Shown piece after piece: positions 46,614-61,895 of a stretch of DNA of 64,000 nt. A program made the translations under genes and the position numbers. The notes under the pieces are model-generated. The model did no database searches, was not told the origin of the DNA, and was given only the letters and a program-made list of their open reading frames with translations. Source of the DNA: Bacillota bacterium (lineage in GTDB: Bacteria; Bacillota; Sulfobacillia; JAIMAT01); assembly GCA_029960955.1 (NCBI GenBank), contig JASBVS010000002.1, forward strand, positions 1 to 64,000, given 5' to 3'. Positions within the stretch are counted from its first letter, which is position 1, and every line of letters starts with the position of its first letter.

Positions 46614-46642
46614 GTCGGCGGTAACTGAATATGAGGACTAGC

Positions 46643-46674
46643 GAGGCGGCGCCGGATAGACCCGGCGCCGCCTC
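46643..46674 (+). terminator. Hairpin after tadC
   Basis: Perfect 13-bp stem GAGGCGGCGCCGG/CCGGCGCCGCCTC with a 6-nt loop, no U-tract. May reduce readthrough or protect the upstream mRNA. Confidence 0.5.
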
Positions 46675-46700
46675 GTCGCGCCATGAGGAGGCGATGCGAT

Positions 46701-48319: not shown

Positions 48320-48372
48320 TCGATCTGCCTGATCTACCATGAAGCGTGAGCGGCGCCGTGGCGGGCGCCGCC

Positions 48373-48432
48373 GCCCCCTCGCCACCCGTGCTGCACCGGC
48401 ACGGATGGCGAGGGGGCGATCTTTTCTCGCCC
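48373..48432 (+). promoter_or_regulatory. Attenuator-like RNA element in the flp1 leader, copy 1
   Basis: Stem GCCCCCTCGCCA/TGGCGAGGGGGC (48373-48384 / 48406-48417) with inner stem CCGTG/CACGG, followed by a U-rich CTTTTCT: a terminator. A competing stem GGGCGA/TCGCCC (48414-48419 / 48427-48432) uses its 3' arm. It ends 27 bp before the flp1 start. A second copy lies at 49030. Confidence 0.7.
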
Positions 48433-48458: not shown

Positions 48459-48674
48459 ATGTTCCGCGAGGTCCTCTCCCGCGCCCGCGCCCTGGCCGGC
48501 GATGACCGCGGCCAGAACACGGTCGAACTCATCATCGCGATGGCTGTGTTGGCGATTATCCTCGTCGCCGGCTTGGTGATCGTCGCCCCCAAGGTTGGCA
48601 CGCTCTTCCAGCACGCGGGCAGCTGCCTCGACTCCGCGAATAGCGCCAACGGAGGCGGCCTGGGCGGCTGCTAA
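48459..48674 (+). CDS. flp1: Flp-type pilin 1
   Basis: 71 residues; ATG 48459 after AAAGGAGGTG. Leader MFREVLSRARALAGDDRG, then QNTVELIIAMAVLAIILVAG: cleavage after glycine with glutamate at +5, as in Flp pilins. Two cysteines in the tail (SCLDS, GGC end). The core is nearly identical to the second pilin. Confidence 0.9.
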   Translation: MFREVLSRARALAGDDRGQNTVELIIAMAVLAIILVAGLVIVAPKVGTLFQHAGSCLDSANSANGGGLGGC

Positions 48675-48683
48675 GGCGCAGGC

Positions 48684-48732
48684 GCCGCGCCCAGCTCGGG
48701 CGTTCAGTCTGGGCTGGGCGCGGCCTCTCTTC
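48684..48732 (+). terminator. Intrinsic terminator between flp1 and flp2
   Basis: Perfect 12-bp stem GCCGCGCCCAGC/GCTGGGCGCGGC with a 17-nt loop followed by CTCTCTTC. It would set flp1 above flp2 in expression. Confidence 0.7.
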
Positions 48733-48753
48733 ACGAGAGGAGGTGACGACGCG

Positions 48754-48993
48754 GTGGACGCCCTGCGATCCGCGCTGGGGCGCGTCCGCGCCCTGGCCGC
48801 TGACGACTGCGGCCAGAACACGGTCGAGCTGATCATCGCCATGGCCGTGTTGGCGATCATCCTGGTCGCCGGGCTCGTCATCGTCGCCCCCAAGGTTGGC
48901 ACGCTCTTCCAGCACGCGGGCAACTGCCTCGATGCTGCGAACAATCCGATGGATGCCTGGTGGAACTGGGGAGTTGCTTGGGGATGCACGTGA
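48754..48993 (+). CDS. flp2: Flp-type pilin 2
   Basis: 79 residues; GTG 48754 after GAGAGGAGGTGA. Leader VDALRSALGRVRALAADDCG then the same QNTVELIIAMAVLAIILVAG core. It differs from pilin 1 in the leader (an extra cysteine before the cleavage site) and the tail (MDAWWNWGVAWGCT). Recent tandem duplication. Confidence 0.9.
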   Translation: MDALRSALGRVRALAADDCGQNTVELIIAMAVLAIILVAGLVIVAPKVGTLFQHAGNCLDAANNPMDAWWNWGVAWGCT

Positions 48994-49029
48994 TTTGACC
49001 CGGAGATGGCGGCGGCAGATGGCGACCGC

Positions 49030-49089
49030 CGCCCCCTCGCCACCCATGTTCCATCGGCATGGATGGCGAGGGGGCGAGTTTTTCTCGCC
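49030..49089 (+). terminator. Attenuator-like RNA element after flp2, copy 2
   Basis: Stem GCCCCCTCGCCA/TGGCGAGGGGGC (49030-49041 / 49063-49074), inner stem CCATG/CATGG, then TTTTTCT. The inner stem has changed on both sides relative to copy 1 (CCGTG/CACGG), which supports the fold. The competing GGGCGAG/CTCGCCC stem is also kept. Confidence 0.75.
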
Positions 49090-49160
49090 CGGAAACCAGC
49101 CACAGGCAGGAGGGAGGTTAGCGACATCTGGAATGGGCGCGGGCCCGCCATCGGCGCCGG

Positions 49161-50445: not shown

Positions 50446-51177
50446 GTGAGGACGAGAAGGCCGAACGTTGCCTGGCAGCCCGTCGTGGATATCGCCGCGG
50501 GCGTGGTGGTGGGGCACGAGGCGCTGGCCCGCTTCGCCGGCGGCCAGGATCCCGCCGCCGCGTTCGCGATCGCGGAGCGCCGAGGCGTGGCGCTCCAGCT
50601 CGACGCGCTCTGCCGGGCGCAGGCGCTGCGCGACCCGCCGCGGTCCGGGCTCGTCTTCGTCAACCTCGCCCCGGCCACGGTGGCGGCGATGGAGGACGGC
50701 CTCGTCCGGCTCCACGCCGGGTCGGCCGGCCCGGGCCGGATCGTGTGGGAGCTTCCTGAGAGAGCCGGCTGGCCGCGGGACGAGCGGGCGGCGGCCGCGG
50801 TGAGGGCCGCGCTCCCGCCAGGATCGCGGCTGGCCCTGGACGACTTCGGCGCGGGCTCGGCCGACTTGGAGAAGCTGGTCGCCGTGCGCCCGGACGTGAT
50901 CAAGCTGGCGCGGGCCCTCACGTCCGGCGTGTCCAGGTCGCCGGCGCGGGCGGCGCTCGTCGAGGCGGTCCTGCGCTGGGCGCGGCGGTTCGGCGCCACG
51001 GTGGTCGCCGAGGGCGTGGAGCTGCGGGAGGACGCGGAGGCACTTCGGCGGCTGGGGGTGCCCTGGGGGCAGGGGTTCCTGTGGGGCGCGCCGGCGATAC
51101 GTCATGACGTGCTCGGAGGAGGTGATGCGCGTGAGGGTCAAGAGACCGAGGCCGTCGGTGCTCGACGGCCTCGATGA
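50446..51177 (+). CDS. EAL-domain cyclic-di-GMP phosphodiesterase
   Basis: 243 residues from GTG 50446 (GTG 50437 possible). EALAR at the start, FVNLAP, VWELPE, LALDDFGAGSADLEKL, DVIKLAR and VVAEGVE...GQGFLWG keep the metal and substrate ligands of active EAL domains. No sensor or GGDEF domain, so a free-standing enzyme that would lower c-di-GMP, the usual signal for switching between pili/adhesion and motility. It sits between the pilus locus and the adhesin genes. Confidence 0.88.
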   Translation: MRTRRPNVAWQPVVDIAAGVVVGHEALARFAGGQDPAAAFAIAERRGVALQLDALCRAQALRDPPRSGLVFVNLAPATVAAMEDGLVRLHAGSAGPGRIVWELPERAGWPRDERAAAAVRAALPPGSRLALDDFGAGSADLEKLVAVRPDVIKLARALTSGVSRSPARAALVEAVLRWARRFGATVVAEGVELREDAEALRRLGVPWGQGFLWGAPAIRHDVLGGGDAREGQETEAVGARRPR

Positions 51178-51589
51178 TGAGTTCGCGCCGACGTCGGACG
51201 CCGCCGTGACGGCGCCCGCGCACGACGGCCGCGGCGGGACCGCTGCGGGCCGTGGGCGCGAGCCGGCGCAGGCGGCGCCCGCGCAGACCATCGTGGTCCA
51301 GGTGGGTTCCGCGGACGCGGCGGCGGGCCGCCGGGCGGGCCGCGTCGGCCGTATGGCGAAGGCCGTGATCCGCGCCGCGGCCGAGTTCCCGGGCCGCGTG
51401 GCCGACCTGCTCTGGTGGGCCCTTGACACGGCGGTGGTCCTGCTGGTCGTCGGACTCATCGCGGCGCTCGCCTTCCCGCGAAGCTGGCCTGGGGAGGTCG
51501 CGATCGCCGCGGGTAAGGAGGCCACGCGGTGGCTCTATGAGCACGCGAGCTGGCTCTTCGTCAGCGTGCGGATGGGTGGAGGTGGATAG
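51131..51589 (+). CDS. Small membrane protein, 'LLWWALD' paralogue 1
   Basis: 152 residues; GTG 51131 is 8 nt after GGAGGAGG and overlaps the EAL gene. Disordered cytoplasmic N-terminus (~85 residues), one long helix (ADLLWWALDTAVVLLVVGLI), then a conserved tail with WLYEHASWLFVSVRMG. Paralogue of the protein at 56383. Each copy is followed after a few bases by a secreted-protein gene. No known family. Confidence 0.7.
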   Translation: MRVKRPRPSVLDGLDDEFAPTSDAAVTAPAHDGRGGTAAGRGREPAQAAPAQTIVVQVGSADAAAGRRAGRVGRMAKAVIRAAAEFPGRVADLLWWALDTAVVLLVVGLIAALAFPRSWPGEVAIAAGKEATRWLYEHASWLFVSVRMGGGG

Positions 51590-52972: not shown

Positions 52973-52985
52973 CTGAGGCGAAGGG

Positions 52986-53012
52986 GGCCGGGCGATCCGC
53001 CTGGCCTCTTCC
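52986..53012 (+). terminator. Probable terminator
   Basis: 9-bp stem GGCCGGGCG/CGCCTGGCC (one G-U) with a 3-nt loop, followed by TCTTCCC. Confidence 0.55.
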
Positions 53013-53032: not shown

Positions 53033-53338
53033 ATGCCGAAGCTCTTCCGGGCGGCCGCCGCGGCGGCCGCCATCGCCATCGCCGCGCTGGGCCACGTCCC
53101 AGCCTCTCAGGCGGCTGCAACGAAGGCCTGGCCGGACGGCGAGGTCCGCTACTGCCACAACTCCGCGCTTCTCGTCCCCGTGGGAACGCAGGTCGCGCTG
53201 GGCCAGCCCGTCTCGCTCTCGGGCTCGACGGGCGAGTCCACCGGCCCGCACCTGCACGTCGAGGTGTACCAGCAGGGGCAGTTGGTGGACCCGCTGACCG
53301 TCTTCGGAAGCGCGCAGACGGCTGGGTACACGCCGTAA
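53033..53338 (+). CDS. Short secreted fragment of an M23 (LytM) peptidase
   Basis: 101 residues; ATG 53033 after GGGAGGAGATAG. Leader PKLFRAAAAAAAIAIA (33 bp of it identical to the gene at 51593), then LVPVGTQVALGQPVSLSGSTGESTGPHLHVEV and LVDPLTVF, the C-terminal half of an M23 peptidase with HLH. The N-terminal half with the H-x-x-x-D zinc ligands is missing, so it should not be an active enzyme. It may bind peptidoglycan, or be a remnant. Confidence 0.7.
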   Translation: MPKLFRAAAAAAAIAIAALGHVPASQAAATKAWPDGEVRYCHNSALLVPVGTQVALGQPVSLSGSTGESTGPHLHVEVYQQGQLVDPLTVFGSAQTAGYTP

Positions 53339-55183: not shown

Positions 55184-55320
55184 TCGGTGCGGTGGTGACG
55201 CGGGAGCAGGCATAGGCGGTCAGCCGCCTGCTCCCTGAGGCGCAGCTTGCGGTTGCCGAGCGGGGCGGGGGAGGGGAGGCGCTTGGCCGCCTCTCCCGCC
55301 TCCCCGTCGAGGCTGTCATC
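55180..55320 (+). other. In-frame 5' extension with a TAG codon, upstream of the TadZ-like gene
   Basis: GTG 55180, after GGAGG, opens the same frame as the gene at 55321 but meets TAG at 55213-55215. Read through, it encodes IGAVVTRE-QA-*-AVSRLLPE-AQLAVAERG-GEALGRLSRL, the missing first half of a receiver-like domain like that of TadZ (41928). So the gene appears to be interrupted by a single amber codon, or to restart internally. Confidence 0.6.
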
Positions 55321-56382: not shown

Positions 56383-56820
56383 GTGATCGAGCTTCGGCGC
56401 CGGGAGCCCAGCCTGGAGGAGCGGCTGGGGCTGAAGAGGGCGCCTGATCCAGAGCCACCCAAACCGCAGGAGGCGAAGGAGCCGGAGCAGCCTACTCCGG
56501 CTCCGCCCGTTTCCCCGCAGGTGGTGGTGATCCAGGGCGGGCAGAGCGCAGGGGAAAAGGAGCTCAAATCGAGCTCCTTTCCGCCTGGGAAGATCGCCCG
56601 GGCTGCCGGGCGGTTCCTCCTCGGCCTGCCCAGCGCGCTGGCCGACCTGCTCTGGTGGGCGCTGGACGTGGCGGTGGTGCTGCTGGTGGCCGGCCTCGTG
56701 GCCGCGCTCGCCTTCCCGCACACGTGGGCGGGCGAGACAGCGGCCGCCGCTGGCCGGTGGGCGGTGCAGTGGCTTTACGAGCACGCGCCGTGGCTGTTCG
56801 TCCACGTGCGAACCGGATAG
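56383..56820 (+). CDS. Small membrane protein, 'LLWWALD' paralogue 2
   Basis: 145 residues, GTG 56383 just after the previous stop. Proline-rich cytoplasmic N-terminus, then ADLLWWALDVAVVLLVAGLV and WLYEHAPWLFVHVRTG, closely matching 51131-51589. Followed after 12 bp by another FRAAA-leader secreted protein, repeating the earlier gene order. Confidence 0.7.
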   Translation: MIELRRREPSLEERLGLKRAPDPEPPKPQEAKEPEQPTPAPPVSPQVVVIQGGQSAGEKELKSSSFPPGKIARAAGRFLLGLPSALADLLWWALDVAVVLLVAGLVAALAFPHTWAGETAAAAGRWAVQWLYEHAPWLFVHVRTG

Positions 56821-56832
56821 GAGGAAATCGAC

Positions 56833-57135
56833 ATGTGGAAGTTCTTCCGGGCGGCTGCCGTGGCGGCCGCCCTCGCTGTAGGCATCTTGGGCATTGCCTC
56901 CGCCGTGCAGGCCTCGCCTGCGGCGAAGGACTTGACGCCTTGGCCGGCCTGTGTGGTCGCTGTGGTCACCTTGCAGGACGGGAGCGAGGCCGCGGTGCCT
57001 GGCGGCTGGCACTTCGTTCCGACCGCCTATGTTTTCACCGCTGATGGGCGTGCCTACGCCACCGCCGGTTATTGGCTGTGCGAGGTGGACCGACTCACCA
57101 CTCCCCAGGCGCTCCTGGCGGCCATGGGCAGGTGA
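56833..57135 (+). CDS. Small secreted protein with FRAAA leader
   Basis: 100 residues, ATG 56833 after ATAGGAGGAA. Leader WKFFRAAAVAAALAVGILG with predicted cleavage near AVQASP; mature part ~70 residues with two cysteines (WPACVV, YWLCEV) probably in one disulfide. No family recognised. Third member of the leader family. Confidence 0.65.
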   Translation: MWKFFRAAAVAAALAVGILGIASAVQASPAAKDLTPWPACVVAVVTLQDGSEAAVPGGWHFVPTAYVFTADGRAYATAGYWLCEVDRLTTPQALLAAMGR

Positions 57136-57175
57136 TCGTAACCGGAACTCAGGCAGACGGCCAATTCTTCGACTC

Positions 57176-57221
57176 CCCGCACCGCCCCGGAGCTTATCCG
57201 GGGTGGGACGGGCGGCCGGAG
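57176..57221 (+). ncRNA. 46-nt structured RNA element, copy 1 (adhesin leader)
   Basis: CCCG-CACC, stem GCCCCGG/CCGGGGT with loop AGCTTAT, GGGA, CGGG, then CGGCCGGAG. The flanking CCCG/CGGG can pair around the CACC/GGGA internal loop. Matches 61712-61757 in 38 or so of 46 positions, with compensatory changes in the stem. Lies 147 bp before the giant adhesin gene. No match to riboswitch classes I know. Confidence 0.6.
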
Positions 57222-57367
57222 AAGCCGCCAAAACATCACAAGGGGGTGATGCCTGCCATGCGATGCCGTGTGGTGGGAGGAGGTGATGCCTGGGGAGGCG
57301 CGGCCAGGTTGAAAGTCGCACGACGTGACATCGGCATGAAGCGCAAACGCAAACGCGAGGTGATGTC

Positions 57368-60300
57368 ATGTTCAAAGCAATGCGCCCACTCGCCGCCGCC
57401 TTGATGGCGGCGGTTCTTGTTATTGGCTCGGTGGTCAGCGCCTTCGCGCCCACCGCCCTTGCGGACGCTGGGAGCCCCACGATCACCACCACGTCGCTTC
57501 CCGATGGGCAGGTAGGCCAGCCCTATTCGGCGACGCTCCAGGCCACCGGTGGGACTCCACCCTACGCCTGGTCTGTCGCCAGCGGTAGCCTGCCGGACGG
57601 GCTGACACTGGACAGCTCCACAGGCGCCATCGGCGGCACGCCGACGGCGGCGGGGAGCTTCACGTTCGCCGTCCAAGTGGCCGACAGCGCGGGAAGCACC
57701 GCAGAGACGAACCTAGCCATCACCATCTCCCCTGCACCATCAGCGCCAACGGTTGATGCGGACAAGTCGACGGTGACGGCCAACCCGACCTCGGTTCCCG
57801 CGGACGGGACGACGGCCTCGACGGTGACCGTCACGGTCAACGACTCCGGCGGCAACCCGATCCAGGGCGTGACGGTGACGCTGGCCGGCAACGGCGGCAC
57901 CAGCTCCACCATCAGCCCGTCGAGCGCCACGACGGACGCCAACGGCCAGGCCGCCTTCCAGGTGACGGACAGCACGCCCGAGACGGTGACCTACACGGCC
58001 ACCGCGGGCGGCGTGCAGATCGCCCAGACGGCGCAGGTTACGTTCACGAGTCAGGCTTCGCAGCCGTCGGGGAGCCTCACGATCTCAACTAAAACGTTTT
58101 ACGGAGTGCCATCCAATGCTGAAGTGGGGGTATTCTACACAGGCGAGCTTGCGGTTTCCGGCGGGGTCTCACCATACACGTGGTCGGCCACCGGGTTGCC
58201 GGCGGGGCTCACAATTATTCCAGACGACGCCACCGATGTCGCATTTATCCAAGGCATGCCGTCCGCGGCTGGTGACTACGCCGCGCACATCACCGTGACA
58301 GACGTGGACGGCCAGAGCGCATCCATGGACATCTCCATCCACGTGATCCCGGGGCCGAGCATCATCATGCACCACCAATGGGGTACGGTGGATCTCCTAC
58401 CAGGCGCGGAGGTCGGGGCACCGTACGACTACCGCCCGACCGTTACAGGTGGTACGCCACCCTACACGTGGTCGGCGGACGGGCTGCCGGCCGGGCTCAG
58501 CATCGACCCATCCACGGGCGAGATCTCCGGCACCCTGTCCGCGGCCGGCGGAAGCTTCTCGATACGGGTGGTTGACGCGGCTGGTGCGGTTGCGTTTGAT
58601 CCAGCGGCCATCCCCGTCTACCCAATCACAGCTACGGTTGCATCAGGGAACTCTGATGCGCAGGTCGGGCAGGCGTACATGCTCACGCTCCAGGCGAGCG
58701 GTGGGTCGGGCGACTACGCTTGGTCGGCGGACGGGCTCCCAGATGGGCTCACGTTGCAGACCAGCAATGGTGCGCCGGACTACGCCGAGATCTCCGGAAC
58801 GCCGACCGTGGCCGGAGACTTTGCTGTGACAGTCACCGTGTCCGACCCCCAAGCCGACCCAAGCCAACCTGGCAGCCAAGCAACCATGACGCTCAGCATC
58901 CACGTCGCCCCGGCTCAGGCTGGAGGTCCGCAGATCACCACAACGACCCTCCCGACCGCCGTAAGGGGGCAGCCCTACTCGGCGCCGCTTCAGGCGACCG
59001 GCGGGCAACCGCCCTACACGTGGTCGGCCCCTAGTCTGTCCTGGGGTCTGTCTATCGATCCTGCCACTGGCGAGATCTCCGGCGAAGTCTCTCAGGACGC
59101 GCCGGGTCAGATCACCTTCAGCGTATCCGTGTCGGATACTGCTGGGCAAACCGGGTACGCGACACTCACCATCCCGGTGCTCTCGGGGCTCGCCATCACC
59201 ACCACGAGCCTGCCAGCTGGCGAGGTCGGGCAGCCGTACTCAGCCCAGCTCGAGGCCACCGGTGGGCAACCCCCGTACACGTGGTCGGCCACCAGCCTTC
59301 CGGACGGGCTCAGCGTTGATCCGTCCAGCGGGCTGATCACCGGAACGCCAGCTGCTGCGGGGATATATCAGGTGCAGGCGGCGGTCTCGGACACGGCCGG
59401 CCAACAAGCTGAGGCCGCGTTCACCCTGGTTGTCAGCCAAACGACCTCCACTAACCCAGTGCAGCAGCCCACCTCACTCACCATCACAACGACCGCGCTC
59501 CAGGATGCCACCGTCGGTGAACCCTACTCAGCCCAACTTCAAGCTGCTGGCGGGACTCCGCCATATACGTGGACCGCACCCTACGGACTGCCGTTCGCGT
59601 GGATGCAGCTCGATGCCAGCGGATCCATCTCCGGAACCCCGGATGTCGCCGGAAGCGGGACTGTGACGGTCCAGGTGACGGACTCGGCTGGCCAGACCGC
59701 GGTGGCGTCCTTGCCGTTTACTGTGGTGGCCGGTGCGGGCAACAACTCGTCTCCGATCATCACGCTTCCCTACCTTCCGACTGGCAAAGTCGGCGAGCCG
59801 TACCAGGCGGCGCTGCAGGCGACCGGTGGGCAACCGCCATACTCCTGGGCTGTGTCTGCTCTCCCAGATGGGCTCTCACTTGATCCATCGACCGGCGTGA
59901 TCTCCGGCATCCCTACGGTTGCCATGAGCAACCTCACCACCACCGTTACCGTGACAGACTCGGCCGGCGTGAAGTCCTCCCAGACGGTGACCATCACGAT
60001 CCTGCCCGCGGACCGGCCTGAACCGCCTCACATCGCGGCCACGGCTCTGCCCGATGGGACGGTCGGCCAGCCTTATGCGGAGGTCTTGGCGTCCTCCTGG
60101 CCTAGCCAGCCGCCCGCCGACGTGCAGCTGCGTTGGAGCGACTGCACGGCAGGGGTAACGGATGAGTGGCGGCAGTACTTGGAGGCCCAGGGTATCAACC
60201 CAGGCCTCCCGGACGGGCTCTCGCTTGACCCCTCGACCGGCGCGGTGACCGGCGTACCGACCGAGGCAGGCACATGGGAGGCGTGCGTGGAGCTCGACGT

Positions 60301-61663
60301 CTCCGACCCGTCCGGAGCGAACGGGTGGGTGCCGGCGGATTTCGCAAACATCGAGATTCGCATTCACTTTGCTCCCGTCCCGCCGGTGCCACCGCTCGTG
60401 GTGACGACCGGATACCTCCCGACCGGCTTCGTGGGCCAGCCATACTCGGCCGCCATCATGGCGGCGGGCGGCCAGCCGCCTTACACGTGGTCGGTAGGCG
60501 GGCTTCCGAACGGCCTGGCGCTCTCCGGCGATGAGATCACCGGCGCGCCCACGGCGGCCGGAGACTACGCCGTGACCCTCACGGTGACGGACTCGGCGGG
60601 TGCCACCGCGTCGCAGGTTGTCGAGCTGCGGGTGATCGAGCAGCCGCAGCCCGCTCCCGCGCCTACACCGGCGCCCGCCCCGCAGCCGCAGCAGCCGCAG
60701 CAGCAGACGGGCGAGATCAAGTCCGAAGACGGCGGCGTGACGGTGACGGCACCGGGCCAGTCAGGCGAGGTGAAGTCCGTCCCTGTCCAGGCCGGCACGC
60801 CGGTCGGCGACGGCCTTGAGGCGGCGTCGAACGTCTACGTTTTCGCCGGCGCTCTGATCGACGCCGACATCACCTTCGTCTACGATCCCGAGGTCTTCTA
60901 CCCAATGCTGCCGACCGGGATGCTGGCGGACCGCTTGGGTATCTACGCCTACTACGGCGGCCAGTGGCATTACGTCGGCGGCAAGGTCGACACGCAGGCT
61001 CACACAGTCTCCATCGCCGGGCTCAACCTGACCGACTTCCCGCAGGGCACGCAGTTCGCGGTCCTCGCCATGACGACGCGGTTCCACGACCTGCCCGACG
61101 CCGCCCACGCGGCCTGGTTTACCCGGCCGGTGGACGCGGCCGTCGGCCACCACGTCCTCTACGGCTACCCGGACGGCACCTTCCGGCCGGGCGCGCCGGT
61201 GACGCGGGCGGAGTTCGCCGCGATGCTCGCGCGGGCGCTCCACCTCGACGCGCCCGACGCGGCGAAGCAGACGTTCTCCGACGTGGCGCCCTCCTCGTGG
61301 GAGTTCGGCGCGGTCGAGGCCGCGGCCCAGGCGGGGCTCGTCAACGGCTACCCGGACGGGAGCTTCAAGCCCGACCGGCCCATCACCCGCGAGGAGCTGG
61401 CCGCGATGGTGGCCAGGGCGCTGGACTACGCGAGGTCGCACAAGGGCCTCTGGACGAAGGCCATGAAGGCCCCCGACCTCACACCGCCCGCCTGGGCGGA
61501 CGCCGACAAGGTGTCGGTCTGGGCGCGGGACGCCGTGACGGCGGCGGCCAAGGCCGGGATCGTCAACGGCTACCCTGACGGGAGCTTCAAGCCGCATGCG
61601 AACGCGACGCGCGCCGAAACCGCGGCGATGATGGCCAGGCTGATCGCGGACCTTGGCATCTGA
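57368..61663 (+). CDS. Giant Ig-like/SLH surface adhesin (1431 residues)
   Basis: ATG 57368 after GAGGTGAT. Signal peptide (to ~33), a He_PIG domain (~37-122), a Big_1-type domain (~130-225), about nine more He_PIG domains (~232-1120; pattern LP-x-G-x-VGQPYS...GG-x-PPYTW...GL-x-x-DPSTG-x-ISG), a Pro/Gln linker, a ~110-residue beta domain, and three C-terminal SLH domains (GYPDGTFRPG, NGYPDGSFKPD, NGYPDGSFKP). SLH domains bind pyruvylated cell-wall polymer and hold the protein in the S-layer; the Ig-like stalk would project adhesion sites outward. The similar repeats invite recombination. Confidence 0.95.
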   Translation: MFKAMRPLAAALMAAVLVIGSVVSAFAPTALADAGSPTITTTSLPDGQVGQPYSATLQATGGTPPYAWSVASGSLPDGLTLDSSTGAIGGTPTAAGSFTFAVQVADSAGSTAETNLAITISPAPSAPTVDADKSTVTANPTSVPADGTTASTVTVTVNDSGGNPIQGVTVTLAGNGGTSSTISPSSATTDANGQAAFQVTDSTPETVTYTATAGGVQIAQTAQVTFTSQASQPSGSLTISTKTFYGVPSNAEVGVFYTGELAVSGGVSPYTWSATGLPAGLTIIPDDATDVAFIQGMPSAAGDYAAHITVTDVDGQSASMDISIHVIPGPSIIMHHQWGTVDLLPGAEVGAPYDYRPTVTGGTPPYTWSADGLPAGLSIDPSTGEISGTLSAAGGSFSIRVVDAAGAVAFDPAAIPVYPITATVASGNSDAQVGQAYMLTLQASGGSGDYAWSADGLPDGLTLQTSNGAPDYAEISGTPTVAGDFAVTVTVSDPQADPSQPGSQATMTLSIHVAPAQAGGPQITTTTLPTAVRGQPYSAPLQATGGQPPYTWSAPSLSWGLSIDPATGEISGEVSQDAPGQITFSVSVSDTAGQTGYATLTIPVLSGLAITTTSLPAGEVGQPYSAQLEATGGQPPYTWSATSLPDGLSVDPSSGLITGTPAAAGIYQVQAAVSDTAGQQAEAAFTLVVSQTTSTNPVQQPTSLTITTTALQDATVGEPYSAQLQAAGGTPPYTWTAPYGLPFAWMQLDASGSISGTPDVAGSGTVTVQVTDSAGQTAVASLPFTVVAGAGNNSSPIITLPYLPTGKVGEPYQAALQATGGQPPYSWAVSALPDGLSLDPSTGVISGIPTVAMSNLTTTVTVTDSAGVKSSQTVTITILPADRPEPPHIAATALPDGTVGQPYAEVLASSWPSQPPADVQLRWSDCTAGVTDEWRQYLEAQGINPGLPDGLSLDPSTGAVTGVPTEAGTWEACVELDVSDPSGANGWVPADFANIEIRIHFAPVPPVPPLVVTTGYLPTGFVGQPYSAAIMAAGGQPPYTWSVGGLPNGLALSGDEITGAPTAAGDYAVTLTVTDSAGATASQVVELRVIEQPQPAPAPTPAPAPQPQQPQQQTGEIKSEDGGVTVTAPGQSGEVKSVPVQAGTPVGDGLEAASNVYVFAGALIDADITFVYDPEVFYPMLPTGMLADRLGIYAYYGGQWHYVGGKVDTQAHTVSIAGLNLTDFPQGTQFAVLAMTTRFHDLPDAAHAAWFTRPVDAAVGHHVLYGYPDGTFRPGAPVTRAEFAAMLARALHLDAPDAAKQTFSDVAPSSWEFGAVEAAAQAGLVNGYPDGSFKPDRPITREELAAMVARALDYARSHKGLWTKAMKAPDLTPPAWADADKVSVWARDAVTAAAKAGIVNGYPDGSFKPHANATRAETAAMMARLIADLGI

Positions 61664-61675
61664 TCTGACCGGACG

Positions 61676-61703
61676 GCGGGCGGCCCCTCATCGGGCCGCC
61701 CGC
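61676..61703 (+). terminator. Hairpin after the adhesin gene
   Basis: Perfect 11-bp stem GCGGGCGGCCC/GGGCCGCCCGC with a 6-nt loop, 12 bp after the stop; no U-tract. Confidence 0.6.
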
Positions 61704-61711
61704 TCCGGCTT

Positions 61712-61757
61712 CCCGCACCGCCCTGGAGCGCATCCAGGGCGGAACGGGCGGCCGGAG
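61712..61757 (+). ncRNA. 46-nt structured RNA element, copy 2
   Basis: CCCG-CACC, stem GCCCTGG/CCAGGGC with loop AGCGCAT, GGAA, CGGG, CGGCCGGAG. Relative to copy 1 a C-G pair is replaced by T-A (61724/61736) and a G-U pair by G-C, the mark of a conserved RNA fold. It precedes the small-protein operon at 61896. Confidence 0.6.
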
Positions 61758-61774
61758 CCGTGATATCTCGCCAC

Positions 61775-61793
61775 GCGACCAATGATTGGTCGC
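61775..61793. promoter_or_regulatory. Perfect 9-1-9 inverted repeat (operator candidate)
   Basis: GCGACCAAT-G-ATTGGTCGC. Same architecture (9-bp arms, one central base) as the operator at 47719-47737. No clear promoter boxes were seen next to it. Confidence 0.5.
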
Positions 61794-61895
61794 ACGGCGA
61801 TCAAACCGCCCACAGGACCATCATCCAGCCCGAGCGGGCCTTGGCGAGCTGGCGCCGGCCCGCGCGGCCCGCTGGATGCGAGGAGGTCGATGGAC

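Follow-up and report, generated by a model that had tools for sequence, protein, structure and literature searches.

Hairpins that lack a U-tract are found in E. coli at the ends of stabilised operon segments (PMC5927463). Structured 5' ends also protect downstream segments in this organism, as in the case of papA of papBA (PMC5927463). In the conjugation operons of Gram-positive bacteria, many weak terminators within a long operon are combined with antitermination (PMC8955417).

A hairpin element resembling those of the malE-malF and papBA type (PMC5927463) is present in two copies in a Bacillota genome, in a window comprising the first 64,000 nucleotides of contig JASBVS010000002.1. Like the described protective intercistronic hairpins, it is a stable structure at a gene boundary, located past a stop codon and devoid of a U-tract, and it adjoins a gene whose product is probably required at another level. 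It differs from them in that the hairpin stands on both sides of the gene. On balance, it is probably an intercistronic gene-boundary hairpin that bounds the transcript segment of a surface protein; it would be transcribed through and would then act in termination or stabilisation.

The element is a direct repeat with 84% identity between its copies (Table 1), which flank a gene for a 1431-aa protein with Ig repeats and SLH domains. The sequence-only reading had rightly recognised a duplicated element around this adhesin gene, but gave its length as 46 nt (57176-57221 and 61712-61757) instead of 55 nt, missing 9 nt at the 5' side. Since these nine nucleotides pair with the 3' end of the element, each copy reads as one hairpin of 22 pairs, imperfect and extending nearly from end to end. 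The similarity ends sharply at both hairpin borders: the remainder of the two 232-nt gaps is unalignable, and comparison of the flanks and neighbouring genes of the two copies found no similarity beyond the hairpin ends. In a BLAST search of the 2.26-Mb genome, the copy 1 region had, apart from its self-match, copy 2 as its sole match above noise (E = 1.5e-10; next best 0.006).

The hairpin consists of an 8-bp outer stem, a 1x1 mismatch, a CCCG:CGGG stem, a 2x2 CA:RA internal loop and a 10-bp stem closed by a GCNNA loop. Unpaired bases are confined to the CA, the RA, the 1x1 position and the loop of 5 nt; in copy 1, the outer stem additionally has one broken pair (A x C). The minimum free energies are -38.2 (copy 1) and -46.7 kcal/mol (copy 2), against a background of 55-nt windows of the contig with a mean of -21.7 and a 0.1% tail at -41.4 kcal/mol. 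The CGGGCGG and CCGGAG motifs, previously taken for conserved single strands, are paired and belong to the 3' side of the outer stem. Like intrinsic (Rho-independent) terminators, both copies are stable, GC-rich stem-loops shortly past a stop codon. However, no U-rich tract follows the stem directly (sequences GGAGAAGCCGCC and GGAGCCGTGATA), and the element is therefore not a standard intrinsic terminator; neither copy is listed by a terminator scan.

Table 1. Positions in the window of the hairpin elements and associated features.
Feature	Position	Strand	Details
Second hairpin family, copy 1	48368..48432	+	13-bp and 7-bp stems, then TCTTTTCT tail
Two tandem Flp-type pilin ORFs	48459..48993	+	48459-48674 and 48754-48993; 88% identical over 161 nt
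Second hairpin family, copy 2	49026..49090	+	then GTTTTTCT tail
100-aa ORF	56833..57135	+	signal-like N-terminus; precedes copy 1
Hairpin element, copy 1	57167..57221	+	31 nt past stop of 100-aa ORF; 146 nt ahead of Ig/SLH gene start
Copy 1 inner 10-bp stem and loop GCUUA	57182..57206	+	fold; CCGCCCCGGA-GCTTA-TCCGGGGTGG
1431-aa surface protein	57368..61663	+	He_PIG Ig repeats, Big_1, three C-terminal SLH domains; between the two hairpins
Extra GC hairpin	61679..61703	+	fold; GGCGGGCGGCCC/GGGCCGCCCGC; abuts copy 2 at its 5' side
Hairpin element, copy 2	61703..61757	+	39 nt past Ig/SLH gene stop; 138 nt ahead of next small ORF start (61896)
Copy 2 inner 10-bp stem and loop GCGCA	61718..61742	+	fold; CCGCCCTGGA-GCGCA-TCCAGGGCGG
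Further dyad	61768..61800	+	fold, sequence; CGCC..GCGACCAA-TGA-TTGGTCGC..GGCG; 3' of copy 2

The + strand may plausibly adopt a conserved single-strand fold, because 43/44 pair cells are kept across both copies and, of the four pairings that are non-Watson-Crick in either copy, three are G-U on this strand, which is the direction of the genes. Covariance model scores are also higher on this strand (83.0 and 86.5 bits, against 36.6 and 50.7 bits on the minus strand), which together with the G-U pairs mildly favours a + strand RNA. The nine differences between the copies fall in 5/44 paired and 4/11 unpaired columns (Fisher p = 0.07), so the truly unpaired bases vary most, contrary to the earlier view that single-stranded parts are kept. 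Among the pairs, one has undergone a double change (C-G to U-A), two have shifted to or from a wobble, and one is broken. Both inner-stem changes on which the sequence-only reading relied (C-G to T-A and G-U to G-C) are indeed present, but they fall short of proof of a selected RNA structure. In neutral simulations with nine substitutions, 5.5% of runs produced one or more compensatory pairs and no more than one break, and the same outcome arose in 11-12% given five stem changes; the shuffle control on covariation, uninformative with only two sequences, gave 271/500. As neutral change yields such a pattern in about 5-12% of runs, the covariation, a single double change between two sequences, is suggestive only as a hint of selected pairing.

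The covariance model built from the two copies was used to search the genome itself, 151 relatives and 398 genomes of the phylum. No third copy was found in the genome and two genus mates (best other match E = 0.15), nor a credible one in the 151 relatives and 398 genomes, where the stricter filters of such large scans can miss weak relatives. The sequence-only reading had itself counted a lack of further copies against its proposal. Three covariance matches, in genomes G034 (30.8 bits), G054 (31.7 bits) and G229 (40.3 bits), lie inside protein-coding genes, namely sensor kinases and a kinase-linked lipoprotein-like gene, and were set aside as GC-rich chance folds; the G229 match is antisense to its gene and has broken pairs. 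Another match, at contig position 64178, lies within an FtsK-like gene and folds differently. Exact degenerate patterns of the element gave 0 matches in GTDB and viral collections, and a plasmid blastn search with the copy 2 region gave short, scattered matches only. Rfam yielded nothing credible for the element at gathering or relaxed thresholds; a single row overlapped it, for a microRNA family (E = 8.4), and was put down to chance. As an RNA class, the element is of no wider importance on present evidence.

The best reading is that the hairpins are lineage-specific and insulate the surface-protein segment of the mRNA or make it more stable. Present on either side of the Ig/SLH gene through copying or retention, a stable hairpin would mark both ends of the segment and would act there as a barrier, either as a weak terminator without a U-tract, as a block to exonucleases after endonucleolytic cleavage, or both. 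The Ig/SLH mRNA might then be expressed and decay apart from its neighbours in the Tad/Flp-pilus island. This is supported by the location of both copies 31-39 nt 3' of the stop codons of co-directional genes, like other boundary hairpins of the cluster. Against it, there is no conservation in relatives to prove selection, and termination need not rely on hairpins, since Rho is encoded in the genome. As an alternative use, by analogy with the conjugation operons, many weak terminators in a long operon may be combined with antitermination.

The cluster around the element, delineated by crude gene calls made for this analysis, lies on the + strand and encodes RcpC/CpaB, a CpaE-like ATPase, a TadA-like T2SSE protein, two T2SSF proteins, a prepilin peptidase and TadE, in addition to the two tandem Flp-type pilins, an EAL protein, Ig-domain proteins and the He_PIG/SLH protein. 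The region is probably an accessory island, because neither of the genus mates searched has the neighbours tested (56383, 62072, the FtsK-like protein and the pilin). A synteny search via the neighbouring TM protein, DUF192, FtsK-like and CpaE-like proteins showed no member of the class with the same arrangement. Two pairs of paralogous small secreted or membrane proteins, one with 48% identity (51104-51589 and 56383-56820) and one whose first 81 nt or so align at 72% DNA identity (53033-53338 and 56833-57135), show that piecewise duplication has enlarged this part of the island. On the 3' side of the pilus cluster, from 62664 to about 78000 of the contig (C12), there are FtsK-like ATPase, actin-like (ALP/MreB-like), PIN and ParB_N proteins, a stretch that looks like a plasmid-type or integrated element. 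Relatives of the FtsK-like protein are present in genome G118, on contigs with no copy of the hairpin element.

Such duplication activity would also be compatible with a non-functional leftover: a hairpin, perhaps a former terminator, that was copied in the course of the piecewise duplications and is now decaying; its pairs would have persisted owing to the G-U pairs that GC-rich transitions often leave behind. There are only two copies, and the pair retention is within reach of the neutral simulations (5-12% of runs). However, the similarity stops exactly at the hairpin ends while flanks and neighbouring genes are dissimilar, both copies occupy the same position past a stop codon, and unpaired bases have changed more than paired ones (p = 0.07), which makes this origin a fairly unlikely one.

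The coincidence of repeat borders with palindrome borders could point instead to a dyad acting in DNA: a mobile palindromic unit (REP/MITE-like), an attC-type recombination site or a large operator, with the direct repeats as the borders of a movable cassette for the surface protein. The repeats do lie on either side of a complete gene, both genus mates searched lack the neighbouring genes tested, and the double change preserves dyad symmetry in DNA as well. The copies also share with REP and other palindromic repeat units that they are short, imperfect intergenic palindromes. However, REP units with a RAYT transposase are expected in many copies per genome, against two here in 2.26 Mb, and no Y1 transposase (PF01797) was found in the genome (93% complete; family detected in 5/14 controls). 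The R'/R'' core of integron attC sites (GTTRRRY / RYYYAAC) is absent; neither 55-nt copy contains a GTT or an AAC. Target-site duplications are not evident, and the imperfect pairs favour the + strand RNA form. Because of the two copies, the missing Y1 transposase and the missing attC core, a DNA element is unlikely, and less likely than a duplicated leftover.

A cis-regulatory 5' leader of the Ig/SLH gene and ORF 61896, be it a riboswitch, a thermosensor or a protein-binding leader, was the original proposal for the element. It would account for the structured single-strand form on the + strand and for the similar spacing to the start codons that follow (146 and 138 nt), but the preceding stop codons explain the positions equally well, and the two downstream genes are unrelated. 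A riboswitch or other leader RNA would be expected to have an unpaired core conserved across homologues and to match a described family; here, the unpaired positions vary most, contrary to a ligand-binding core. The likeness to c-di-GMP-I/II riboswitches is limited to an EAL-domain gene in the vicinity: no Rfam match was obtained for these even at E<=10 across the 5.2-kb region, in agreement with the sequence-only reading, which had already set that class aside. Without homologues or an Rfam match, and with least conservation where a binding core would be expected, a sensing leader has the least support among the rivals; it is not supported and decidedly unlikely. It is highly improbable that the element is a lineage-specific structured RNA bound by a protein or ligand to co-ordinate the surface protein with its pilus-island neighbours.

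Other hairpins bear on the proposed gene-boundary role. Between 45.6 and 62.5 kb, every co-directional gap of 60-260 nt examined in the island contains a strong hairpin. Stems of at least 14 pairs occur in 6/10 gaps in the island and 6/37 elsewhere on the contig (p = 0.01), a comparison based on crude gene calls and on a region picked after being seen; across the whole contig, the enrichment of post-stop hairpins is weak. If the gene-boundary role is right, the island has repeated hairpins at nearly every gene boundary, which twice form matched pairs around bulk products (pilin and surface protein) and would offer a simple means of setting unequal expression in a long cluster. The second such pair encloses the two tandem Flp-type pilin ORFs, and its copies (89% identity) differ by paired changes. 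Unlike the 57167/61703 element, this 48368/49026 family has a T-tract, in the form of a TTTT(T)CT tail. Further long hairpins are found at most island gene boundaries, at 46639-46678, 48680-48728, 52980-53012 and 55262-55302.
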